Positions 40,392 to 44,577 of a DNA stretch of 50,371 nucleotides are shown here, piece by piece (within the stretch, counting starts at the first letter, position 1; each line of letters starts with the position of its first letter). The stretch lies in contig JAAYPI010000048.1 in the NCBI GenBank assembly GCA_012519885.1, forward strand, positions 1 through 50,371, given 5' to 3'. A program made the position numbers and the translations under genes. Source of the stretch: Bacteroidales bacterium. GTDB taxonomy: Bacteria > Bacteroidota > Bacteroidia > Bacteroidales > Paludibacteraceae. Below the pieces are notes generated by a model. That model ran no database searches and had not been told where the DNA came from. It saw nothing but the letters and a program-made list of their open reading frames with translations.

Positions 40392-40470
40392 ACAAGTTGA
40401 TGTTGTTTTATCTTATACGCTAGGTAAAAGCTAAACGCATAAGTAGTTTATACTAAGTTAGTTTACTATG

Positions 40471-40522: not shown

Positions 40523-42988
40523 CTATAACAAACTCCCTAATTGAAAAATGAGAAATGCACATACCCATGCCAAAGATGTGCTGTATGCAATAGAGAATAA
40601 TCCCCATTTCCACGAGCCCGATTCGTTCTTAATAGCAATGATAGTGGCGATGCACGGAAAACTCAACAGAATAAAAATCATGTAGCCAAAAGCGATAAGC
40701 GGTGTAATTTGTTGCTTGCCCGAGGCATCGGTTACATGTTGTAGTTTATACGATAGTTCGGCTGAATTTTCGTCGGTTGCATTGTTGGTATATAATACGC
40801 CCAATGTGCTAACAACTAGCTCTTTGGCAGGTAGTCCAGCAATAAGACCAATTCCCATTTCCCAATTAAAACCCAGGGGTTTGATAATAGGGAGAATCGT
40901 ATTGCCAATTTTGCCAATATAACTCGTTTTTTGTTGTTGCGTGTTACGTTCCCATTGCAGTTTTTGCAGTTGCGTGTTGGTTTCCTCGGTGGTGGGAAGT
41001 GCTGTTAGTTGGTTGATTTTATCATCTAGTTGCGGTGTACGCGTTTCTGCTAAGGGAAAATACCCTAAAGCCCAGATAATGATAGATGCAAACAAGATGA
41101 TGGTACCCATTTTACGCAAGTATTGTTGCGATTTTTCCCACATATGGCGTAGAGTAGCCCTAGCCGTAGGCATTCGGTATGGTGGCAATTCCATTACAAA
41201 AGGCACATCTTCGGTGTTGAATAAAAAGCGTTTGAACAAACGAGCCGATATAATTGCCATGAGCATGCCAATGAGGTATAATCCAAGCATTACGAGTGAG
41301 GCACTGTTAGGGAAAAATGCCCCCGCAAACAACACATACACCGGTAGCCGAGCACTACACGACATAAAGGGTGTAGCTAGCATGGTTATCATGCGGCTAT
41401 TTTTGCTTTCGATAGTGCGTGTAGCTAAAATGGCAGGCACGTTGCACCCGAAACCCATTAACAAAGGCACAAACGATTTGCCGTGCAAGCCCATTTTGTG
41501 CATAATCTTATCCATAATAAACGCAGCACGTGATAAATAGCCAGAGTCTTCCATCAAGGAGATGAAAAAATACAAGATAAGGATATTTGGCAAAAAGATA
41601 ATAACCGAACCGATACCACGAATGATGCCATCGACCAGTAAATCTTTTACTGCACCAGCAGGCAAAAACGAAGCTACCCAATCGGCTAATGCACCCATAC
41701 CCATGTCAATCCAGTCTTGCGGATAAGCCCCCAAAGTAAAAGTAGCCTGAAACATAATCCACATAAAAAACAAAAAGATAGGATAGCCAATAATACGGTG
41801 CGTTACCAGAGAATCGAGTATTTTGGTAAGGTAAAAGGCATCTTTTTTCCCTTCGGTAAAAGTTTCGGCAAGAGCTCCCGCTATGAACCCATATTTTGCA
41901 TTGATAATAGCCGATTCGGTGTCGTCTTTTAGCTCATTTTCCAGAAAAGGAATTGCTTTTTCAGTATATCCCAAAATGTCTTTTTGGTTTGCCAGCGAGT
42001 GAATATATTGTTCGGCTTCTTTGTCTTTTTCGAGAAGTTTAACAGCAAAAAAACGAGCGGCAATATGACTTTTAAAATGAGCATCTTCTTTAATCAGGTC
42101 GTTGAGTTTGTCAATAGCCAATTGTAAATCGCCACCATGGTTGATATGTATATGGCGTACGGTAGGTTCATTCCCTTCGTAAACCTCTATTACTTTTTCG
42201 AATACGTGTTTGATTCCGTTTTTTTCGTTGTTGTATCCTTTTACGGCAACTGTGGGCACAATGGGTACACCAATCATTTTACCTAGTTGAAGGTAATTGA
42301 GCGTATGGTTGTGTTTTTCCAGTTCATCGTACATATTGAGTGCTATTACCATAGGCACGTCCATGTCGATGAGTTGTGTAGTAAGGTACAAATTGCGTTC
42401 GAGGTTAGAGGCTGATACAATATTGATGATTACATCGGGTGTTTCTTCAAAAATATGTTTCCGCACATAGCGTTCTTCGGGCGAGTAGGCAGCTAAGGAG
42501 TATGTGCCAGGAAGGTCGAAAATACGAAATTTATAATCGCCAAGTGTAAAATGTCCTTCTTTGGCATCTACCGTAATGCCACTGTAGTTGCCAACACGCT
42601 CGTGGCTACCTGAGGCAATGTTGAAAAACGAAGTTTTGCCAGAGTTTGGATTCCCTACTAAAGCTACGTTGATAATATGACCTGTTTTTTTAGCAATGGC
42701 GTCTAACGAAGAAGCTTCTATTGTACCAAAATAGTTGGATGTAGTAGAGCTCGCTAAGGCTTCCTTTTCGCTGATAACACGTATTAATTCAGCTTCGTTA
42801 CGACGTAGAGATACCTCGTAATCCATTACCTTGTATTTAATGGGGTCTTTTAAAGGAGCATTGAGCAGTACTTCTACCTTTTTGCCCTTGATAAAGCCCA
42901 TTTCGATAATGCGTTTGCGAAAATTGCCATGTCCTAGAACCTTTACTATAATGGCTTTTTCTCCTGTTTGCAAATCGGATAGACGCAT
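40523..42988 (-). CDS. feoB: Ferrous iron transporter FeoA-FeoB fusion
   Basis: This 821-residue protein joins an N-terminal FeoA-like SH3 domain (about 1-72) to FeoB. The G domain has GNPNSGKTSFFN (112-123), GNYSGITVDAKEG (switch), DLPGTYSL and NMYD. A cytosolic helical region is followed by about eight or more transmembrane helices with Gate-type motifs (FLPNILILYF, LLMGFGCNVPAI, TPFMSCSARLPVY). It imports Fe(II) across the inner membrane under anoxic conditions. The FeoA-FeoB fusion is common in Bacteroidota. The upstream region has a promoter and two matching palindromes. Confidence 0.96.
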   Translation of the reverse strand: MRLSDLQTGEKAIIVKVLGHGNFRKRIIEMGFIKGKKVEVLLNAPLKDPIKYKVMDYEVSLRRNEAELIRVISEKEALASSTTSNYFGTIEASSLDAIAKKTGHIINVALVGNPNSGKTSFFNIASGSHERVGNYSGITVDAKEGHFTLGDYKFRIFDLPGTYSLAAYSPEERYVRKHIFEETPDVIINIVSASNLERNLYLTTQLIDMDVPMVIALNMYDELEKHNHTLNYLQLGKMIGVPIVPTVAVKGYNNEKNGIKHVFEKVIEVYEGNEPTVRHIHINHGGDLQLAIDKLNDLIKEDAHFKSHIAARFFAVKLLEKDKEAEQYIHSLANQKDILGYTEKAIPFLENELKDDTESAIINAKYGFIAGALAETFTEGKKDAFYLTKILDSLVTHRIIGYPIFLFFMWIMFQATFTLGAYPQDWIDMGMGALADWVASFLPAGAVKDLLVDGIIRGIGSVIIFLPNILILYFFISLMEDSGYLSRAAFIMDKIMHKMGLHGKSFVPLLMGFGCNVPAILATRTIESKNSRMITMLATPFMSCSARLPVYVLFAGAFFPNSASLVMLGLYLIGMLMAIISARLFKRFLFNTEDVPFVMELPPYRMPTARATLRHMWEKSQQYLRKMGTIILFASIIIWALGYFPLAETRTPQLDDKINQLTALPTTEETNTQLQKLQWERNTQQQKTSYIGKIGNTILPIIKPLGFNWEMGIGLIAGLPAKELVVSTLGVLYTNNATDENSAELSYKLQHVTDASGKQQITPLIAFGYMIFILLSFPCIATIIAIKNESGSWKWGLFSIAYSTSLAWVCAFLIFQLGSLL

Positions 42989-43041: not shown

Positions 43042-43087
43042 ACTATAAGTAGTGAAAAATAGCCTGTTGACTCACTATAACTAGTGA
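43042..43087. promoter_or_regulatory. Two near-identical palindromes upstream of feoAB
   Basis: ACTATAAGTAGTGA (43042-43055) and ACTATAACTAGTGA (43074-43087) differ at one base and are exactly 32 bp apart, about three DNA turns. Each contains the inverted repeat ACTA-N4-TAGT. Relative to the predicted feoAB start they lie near -40 to -53 and -72 to -85, positions typical of regulator sites. The second copy also forms the inner part of the luxR terminator hairpin, so RNA function alone could explain it. Confidence 0.5.
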
Positions 43088-43097
43088 TGAGGCTATT
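43055..43097 (-). terminator. Terminator of the RIC-luxR unit
   Basis: On the minus strand AATAGCC (43091-43097) pairs with GGCTATT (43058-43064), with an inner TCACTA/TAGTGA helix (43072-43087). TTTTT follows. The luxR stop codon lies within the 5' arm. The stretch lies directly before the feoAB promoter. Confidence 0.8.
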
Positions 43098-43698
43098 GTA
43101 CGTCTTCTTGCTTAATTAGGTTGTTGAACAGGGCATATACAGTAAGTCCAGATATGGATTTAATCCCTGTTTTGCGGGTAATATTTTTACGGTGCGACAT
43201 TACCGTGTGGATAGAAATATTGAGAGTTGAGGCTATTTCTTTGTTTATTAAGCCTTTTACAACTGCAATAAGGACTTCTTGTTCGCGTTCGGATAATTCA
43301 GTGGTGTCTGTTTCGGTTATGTCAATTGTATCTTGTTCGATGATGTGTCTAATTTTTGCAGAGATTGTTTGTGCATCATCATAAATATCGATGATATCAT
43401 CGAATTGTTTTAGAAATTGACTGTCGGAATATTGACTGACAAAAGCAATGATAGATGCATGCGTACAATCTTTAAAAATAGATTTGATAGATAAGTTTTT
43501 ATGAAATCCAAACACAGCTGTATTCACAATAATAATATCTGCACGCAGTTGAGCTAGTTTTTGAGTAATTGTGTCTAATTCTGTAACGTGGTAGATTGAC
43601 TCCGCTATGTGCATTCGTTCTATAATTGATTGCAATCCAGCAAACACAATAGTAGAAGGTTCGATAATGATAATGCGTTGGTTTGTTTGTGTTATCAT
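43093..43698 (-). CDS. LuxR-family transcriptional regulator with degenerate receiver domain
   Basis: The 201-residue protein has an N-terminal response-regulator-like domain (about 6-120) and a C-terminal LuxR helix-turn-helix (about 133-195: LSEREQEVLIAVVKGLINKEIA, split at SEREQEVLIAVV and GLINKEIASTLNIS, then HTVMSHRKNI). In the receiver, the normal phospho-acceptor Asp appears to be N59 (IIIVNTAVFG), and the conserved Lys near the end is not seen. Phosphorylation is therefore doubtful. It lies 23 nt behind the RIC-like gene and directly upstream of feoAB. Confidence 0.87.
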   Translation of the reverse strand: MITQTNQRIIIIEPSTIVFAGLQSIIERMHIAESIYHVTELDTITQKLAQLRADIIIVNTAVFGFHKNLSIKSIFKDCTHASIIAFVSQYSDSQFLKQFDDIIDIYDDAQTISAKIRHIIEQDTIDITETDTTELSEREQEVLIAVVKGLINKEIASTLNISIHTVMSHRKNITRKTGIKSISGLTVYALFNNLIKQEDVQ

Positions 43699-43721: not shown

Positions 43722-44420
43722 TTAGTTTTGACTTTTTTCTATGCTTTCAACATATGGGATTAACACTTTATCTTCTATCAATGTATGTCGGTTGAGGTCT
43801 TCTTCGAATAAGAAAATATCGTATAGTAATTTATTGCGTTCACGGGAAGGGCAATCGTTGGGTACATATTTAATGATAATGTTTTTTAAGTCCCCTAGTT
43901 TCTCTTCAATATTGGTGTGGTTTTTTTCAAATTGTTGGATACCAAAACCTGGTGTTTTTTCTCCTGCAATCAGTTTATACACATAAGGAAAAACGCTACT
44001 ATCCTCGTATTCGAGGTGTTTGATTACTTCTTTTTTGTATCCATCAAAAAAAGTTTCGATAATACTATAATGCTTATTGGAGCAGGATTGGTTCATTGCA
44101 TGTATAGATTGTTCTATTTCTACAATGCGTTCAGTTAGATAGTATTGGTGCGAATTGGATAGATACGAGAGCAAAGTGTGTATGTCAATTGTTTGTATTT
44201 CGCTAGGTGTAGGCATATAATTGTCTTGCGTATAAATAGTGCATACGAGTAGAAAAAAATCTGTTGGAACAGCATAGTGGCTACACACTTCAGCTACGGT
44301 TTTTTCGCCAAACCCGAGAGGAATACCAAATCGGGTAATTACGGGCAACAGTTTGAAATTATGCAAAATAAGGTTAGCTAATTTCATCTGTGGAGTAAAA
44401 TGTATCTGTTTCATTGGCAA
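43722..44420 (-). CDS. Hemerythrin-domain protein, RIC/ScdA-like
   Basis: This 232-residue protein has an N-terminal segment (about 10-60) resembling the RIC/ScdA N-terminal domain, but with GIPLGFGEKT where the usual double-Cys motif would be. A hemerythrin-like helical bundle (about 85-225) follows. Candidate di-iron ligands are H91, H135, E139 (HLEYE), H168 (KNHTNIE), H212 and E216 (RHTLIED). RIC proteins repair iron-sulfur clusters or bind NO/O2. Pairing with a LuxR regulator next to feoAB suggests sensing, which is an inference. Confidence 0.85.
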   Translation of the reverse strand: MPMKQIHFTPQMKLANLILHNFKLLPVITRFGIPLGFGEKTVAEVCSHYAVPTDFFLLVCTIYTQDNYMPTPSEIQTIDIHTLLSYLSNSHQYYLTERIVEIEQSIHAMNQSCSNKHYSIIETFFDGYKKEVIKHLEYEDSSVFPYVYKLIAGEKTPGFGIQQFEKNHTNIEEKLGDLKNIIIKYVPNDCPSRERNKLLYDIFLFEEDLNRHTLIEDKVLIPYVESIEKSQN

Positions 44421-44463: not shown

Positions 44464-44577
44464 GGCGTTTTTTTTAGAAATCGTCCGCTTGCAATCAGAA
44501 AATTGTAGGTAAACGAACCACTAGTCAGTAATGGAGATATATCCTACGCGGAATATGCATACCTTTGTATTATAGTT

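Follow-up and report, generated by a model that had tools for sequence, protein, structure and literature searches.

Which protein, if any, reads the two near-identical palindromes that lie in front of feoAB in this Bacteroidales bacterium, and with what effect on the gene? The window, i.e. the whole stretch of 50,371 nucleotides analysed here, had been described from its letters alone as carrying two 14-mers with a single-base difference, at a distance of exactly 32 bp from each other. The sequence bears this out: ACTATAAGTAGTGA (43042-43055) and ACTATAACTAGTGA (43074-43087) are present, with the one-base difference and the 32-bp spacing. Our answer, which we hold with good confidence in spite of the lack of binding data, is that the twin constitutes the operator of the adjacent NarL/LuxR-type protein (Table 1), which activates iron acquisition under iron limitation. 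The operator has apparently not been described before; a literature search for the motif string returned nothing relevant, and no paper was found that ties a hemerythrin-LuxR pair to an operator.

Table 1. Positions of the features discussed in the text (numbering of the window)
Feature	Position	Strand	Remarks
RIC/YtfE-like hemerythrin di-iron protein	43722..44420	minus	first gene of the RIC-luxR pair
LuxR/NarL-type regulator	43093..43698	minus	CdhR-like, with a pseudo-receiver domain; proposed to read the operator
Terminator-like hairpin after luxR	43057..43097	minus	U-run; contains the distal operator
Distal operator TCACTAGTTATAGTGA	43087-43072	minus	perfect 16-bp palindrome; exactly 32 bp from the proximal operator
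Proximal operator TCACTACTTATAGTCA	43055-43040	minus	near-perfect 16-bp palindrome; feoAB sense strand
-33 element TTG	43039-43037	minus	directly adjoins the proximal operator (TAGTCATTG)
-7 element TACCTTTG	43016-43009	minus	Bacteroidetes TAnnTTTG; N20 after TTG
feoAB fusion (FeoA + FeoB, 821 aa)	40523..42988	minus	gene proposed to be controlled

The good feoAB promoter that had been placed downstream of the twins is confirmed as well: TTG-N20-TACCTTTG agrees with the Bacteroidetes consensus, and 20 nt separate its -7 element from the feoAB start codon. Measured from the first base of the -7 box, the operator centres lie 31.5 bp (proximal) and 63.5 bp (distal) upstream, which corresponds to roughly -42 and -74, and the TTG beside the operator is also kept in relatives. 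Two other stretches that had been regarded as related to the twins, namely a palindrome with a 3-bp centre (40452-40462) and a half-like CACTAGT (44517-44523), obtained no operator score and cannot be upheld as related sites.

The core ACTA-N4-TAGT taken alone is not rare in the window (2 occurrences against 0.94 expected), and we rejected it as a genome-wide marker, since it is not enriched (44 sites against 68 in the reversed control); an identical 12-mer at C38:12637 was discarded as it sits within a coding sequence. The exact palindrome TCACTA-N4-TAGTGA, by comparison, occurs three times in the 2.28-Mb genome and not once in the reversed control, and all three occurrences belong to 32-bp twins, located before feoAB, at C50 and at C56. 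Twins of ACTA-N4-TAGT with zero mismatches at this distance are found in this genome only before feoAB and at C50:17022-17065, where the core of the second site is also perfect and where a small His-rich ORF and a TonB receptor follow. The C56 twin consists of a perfect distal site and, 32 bp later, a degenerate TACCCACAAAATGGGATTG at the promoter, and precedes a porin-like gene and an FMN-binding gene. With as many as 2 mismatches allowed, the twin pattern was no more frequent than its reversed control in relatives outside this genus, and only exact twins stand out. In the sister genome G001, whose LuxR protein is 77% identical, both feoAB sites and the 32-bp spacing are unchanged and the substitutions fall outside the sites; single near-matches at C17 and C85 of G001 lie in coding sequence and were set aside. 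As a side observation, L047:4633-5016 encodes a small His-rich membrane protein without a Pfam match before a TonB receptor, and similar pairs are found under the operator in other Bacteroidales.

A rival reading is that the palindromes act in RNA: the distal copy would be the stem tip of the luxR terminator, and the proximal copy a chance occurrence or an attenuator element. The distal copy does form the apical stem of a strong terminator-like hairpin in the luxR-feoAB intergenic region (-14.4 kcal/mol, z -4.4), and only this copy meets the criterion of an intrinsic terminator, a stable stem-loop followed by a U-run. The proximal copy, however, is nearly devoid of RNA stability (-0.2 kcal/mol); many unrelated genes have this site in front of them at one and the same distance from the -7 box, in DNA that precedes the expected start of transcription, and the twins at C50 and C56 of the same genome are outside any luxR terminator. 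We therefore give an explanation by RNA structure hardly any credence. The preliminary description itself would have been refuted by conservation limited to the luxR terminator hairpin, with no palindrome at -40; this is not the case, as the proximal site is kept in other families too, at an unchanged distance from the -7 box.

Conservation of the arrangement is seen, for instance, in two further genomes. G059, a member of another family, has the operator TCACTATTTATAGGGA in the interval from luxR to a porin-feoAB operon; G039 has TCACTACTTATAGTGA in front of a porin-imelysin operon. As in the window, 31.5 bp separate the operator centre from the downstream -7 box in both. The composite TCACTA-N4-TAGTGATTG-N20-TAnnTTTG recurs throughout the order, in front of feoAB, of TonB receptors (some accompanied by HemN), of flavodoxin-DUF2023, of porin-imelysin and of RIC-luxR. 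A first scan with the operator and the -7 box found matches in 61 of 295 Bacteroidales genomes, but its excess was modest (roughly 80 matches against 60 for the reversed pattern at up to 2 mismatches), and therefore the weight rests on near-exact matches. A second, stricter scan, in which the TTG was included, found matches in 110 of 393 genomes, with well over 100 matches against about 30 reversed-pattern hits by our own count of the control column. Family assignment was confirmed for a sample of the genomes. The 28 matches listed with no more than 1 mismatch of 21 are all followed, at a distance of 18-93 nt, by the start codon of an operon; these operons are led by feoAB, porin-feoAB, a TonB receptor or flavodoxin, several of the TonB receptors being followed by MFS and HemN genes. 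At 2 or more mismatches further targets are added (porin-imelysin, porin-FMN_bind, His-rich protein with TonB receptor, and RIC-luxR). The enrichment upstream of iron genes, which had been proposed as a check of the motif, is thus strong in the Bacteroidales scans. The sites of the position matrix were chosen by a pattern derived from this window. Positions left free by the pattern carry signal as well: about 98% of sites have A or T at the two central operator bases.

Composite sites also allowed us to evaluate the twin spacing, since the upstream DNA scored for second copies had no part in their selection. Among 151 distinct composite sites, a second copy is found 31, 32 or 33 bp upstream in 7, 19 and 6 cases, respectively, while any other offset between 16 and 144 bp accounts for at most 3 sites. 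Most of the 151 sites have one recognisable copy only, and some of them come from related species. From the peak at 31-33 bp we conclude that a spacing of three helical turns is a recurrent design, which supports the earlier proposal of two dimer sites three turns apart; before feoAB they lie in an activator-like position. The composite operator is also present at the enolase genes of several Bacteroides and a relative (L268, L297, L302 and L306), with a further copy 32-33 bp ahead of it; enolase is an unexpected member of an iron regulon. At L259 (G264:C36:107112-107189) a TonB receptor-HemN operon and a superoxide-dismutase-like gene are separated by an overlapping divergent operator.

The LuxR protein possesses a C-terminal GerE helix-turn-helix (PF00196, 58 bits against a cut-off of 23.5), with helix-turn-helix residues that are invariant in 28 homologues. 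Its receiver-like N-terminal domain is indicated by a profile match to full-length VraR (E 6e-22), and the predicted fold matches VraR, LiaR and FixJ. The criterion for a true receiver is not met: EP replaces the acidic pair, and the phospho-acceptor Asp is mostly replaced by N, which makes a kinase signal unlikely. The neighbouring hemerythrin-like gene, whose listed TTG start is followed within a few bases by an in-frame ATG, encodes a protein with residues of metal-ligand type (H91, H135, E139, H168, H212 and E216) that are invariant in 29 sequences. It shares with RIC/YtfE/ScdA the hemerythrin-type domain and the full set of conserved His/Glu ligands; it differs from them in being paired with a transcription factor and in scoring far below the cut-off of the curated RIC equivalog (TIGR03652, 50.7 against 204.7 bits).

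A di-iron protein gene directly adjoining a regulator gene is also the arrangement of the CdhR pair. In Porphyromonas gingivalis this pair is PG1236-PG1237, and its counterpart in B. thetaiotaomicron is BT0519-BT0520; in Prevotella intermedia the hemerythrin and LuxR parts are fused as one protein (PMC10434189), which suggests by analogy that the two proteins work together. The systems resemble each other in the hemerythrin gene beside a LuxR-type regulator, the induction by iron depletion and the link to heme/iron uptake; they differ in that no operator was given for CdhR and its mechanism was called unclear (PMC10434189), whereas here a defined twin operator and a regulon of several operons are at hand. 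Upon iron depletion of B. thetaiotaomicron, the DUF2023 gene BT0516 and the flavodoxin gene fldA (BT0517) rise 598-fold and 326-fold, and the hemerythrin-LuxR pair BT0519-20 rises 16-20-fold (PMC10434189). These published data match several of our target types. We consider the LuxR protein a probable counterpart of CdhR; orthology to the PG1237 sequence was not tested. As an independent test of the CdhR link we looked at HmuY genes, with a largely negative outcome: only about 1 of the 30 loci sampled for hmuY, the gene reported to be the CdhR target, has the composite upstream, and P. gingivalis was not identified among these loci.

Among solved structures the closest relatives of the LuxR protein are VraR and LiaR of Firmicutes. 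Regulators of this kind likewise use 16-bp inverted repeats as operators, e.g. the CesR site, the 16-bp palindrome TCAGHCTnnAGDCTGA (PMC4447274). VraR, LiaR and CesR serve cell-wall stress through receivers that are phosphorylated by a kinase, while the present system combines a pseudo-receiver with iron genes, a 4-bp operator centre and a fixed twin spacing of 31-33 bp.

We propose that one LuxR dimer would bind TCACTA-N4-TAGTGA directly beside the TTG -33 box, and that a second dimer would bind 32 bp upstream on the same helix face and cooperate with the first. The bound regulator may then bring RNA polymerase to feoAB when iron is scarce, on a signal whose most likely source is the hemerythrin-like di-iron protein encoded next to it, with its invariant metal ligands, because the receiver of the LuxR protein lacks the usual phosphorylation residues. 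The operator, the twin spacing, its phase relative to the promoter, the regulon and the recurrence beside RIC-luxR are observed; binding of the LuxR protein and the sensing or reporting of iron status by its di-iron partner are inferred without a direct test, and activation under iron limitation is inferred from position and published expression. Neither binding nor expression data exist for this organism.

The opposite sign of regulation, with the LuxR protein repressing feoAB in the iron-replete state, is conceivable, as a protein bound next to the -33 box could block the polymerase. Several target promoters (those of G059, G039 and C50), however, have a poor -33 element or none, which suits dependence on an activator. 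CdhR is also said to be an activator of hmuYR. The 2023 transcriptomic study states only that it 'regulates' hmuYR, and reports that hemerythrin-LuxR genes and operons of the target type rise together on iron depletion (PMC10434189), which again does not suit a repressor. We hold repression to be unlikely.

Operator and LuxR protein are also linked by genomic association. When the known RIC-luxR promoter loci were withheld from training, the resulting position matrix detected the composite upstream of 19 of 45 RIC-luxR operons on the coding strand, against 2 on the opposite one; high and low scorers are clearly separated. The RIC-luxR pairs of B. fragilis and P. vulgatus carry the operator, as do their counterparts of DUF2023-flavodoxin. 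In the window, G001, G059 and G041 the operator also occupies the gap that follows luxR. In a phylum-wide sample, G466 and G762 are among the strongest RIC relatives from outside Bacteroidales, and each has a RIC-luxR-feoAB arrangement and twin operators 31 bp apart before feoAB; in G445, also outside the order, TCCCCACAAATGGGGATTG follows luxR, and in G587 no operator was present in the stretch read. The tie between operator and regulator thus extends beyond one order, as an association and not as demonstrated binding. In the same sense, the recurrence at RIC-luxR supports the suggestion of the preliminary description that this may be a new operator for the adjacent LuxR protein.

These data could also be accommodated by a genuine iron-regulon operator with another reader, a protein of the Fur, DtxR or CRP/FNR family, RIC-luxR being only one of its targets. 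The 19 of 45 loci fit a target as well as an autoregulator, the target set (feoAB, TonB receptors, flavodoxin, imelysin) is of the kind shared with Fur and DtxR regulons and typical of the former, and a 16-bp palindrome with a 4-bp centre also suits CRP/FNR geometry. In contrast to such regulons, the operator here has an activator-like position, adjoining the -33 element and with 32-bp twins, which suits an activator better than a Fur repressor, and it is associated with the hemerythrin-LuxR pair, lying after luxR in several families and in outside-order genomes that keep RIC-luxR. To our knowledge, its sequence is unlike known Fur, DtxR or FNR boxes, although no matrix was run. We regard another reader as improbable, but a Fur-type protein is not excluded. 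Activation by the LuxR protein, our preferred reading, is further weakened by the rarity of the site at hmuY, by the absence of a recognisable operator from the window's own RIC-luxR promoter in matrix scoring, and by some sites outside the order that precede non-iron genes.

Knowledge of iron control in Bacteroidetes is scarce, and the action of CdhR was called unclear in the 2023 study (PMC10434189). The present work contributes an operator that is concretely defined and fixed in its spacing, names candidates for the regulator and the sensor, and lists target operons. This turns the question of iron control into a simple binding and deletion test and makes the regulon predictable in any sequenced Bacteroidales genome. 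It is, in our estimate, an even question whether the main iron-starvation response of Bacteroidales and some deeper Bacteroidota runs, in place of Fur or in addition to it, through an iron-sensing pair: a hemerythrin-like di-iron protein and, gated by it, a LuxR-type activator that works independently of phosphorylation at twin operators.

Several loci deserve separate mention. In Bacteroidota outside the order, L361 and L373 combine RIC-luxR-feoAB synteny with 31-bp twins, and L361 has two twin pairs. Near-perfect composite sites precede TonB receptors in L363 and L371, from genomes that are also outside the order and lack a close RIC homologue; another regulator of similar specificity possibly acts there. 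LuxR proteins with a closely similar helix-turn-helix are encoded at G021:C13, G029:C8, G032:C36, G056:C169 and G053:C51, several of them in frames of about 300 aa, and their genes are close to homologues of this genome's operator-carrying porin and TonB receptor genes.
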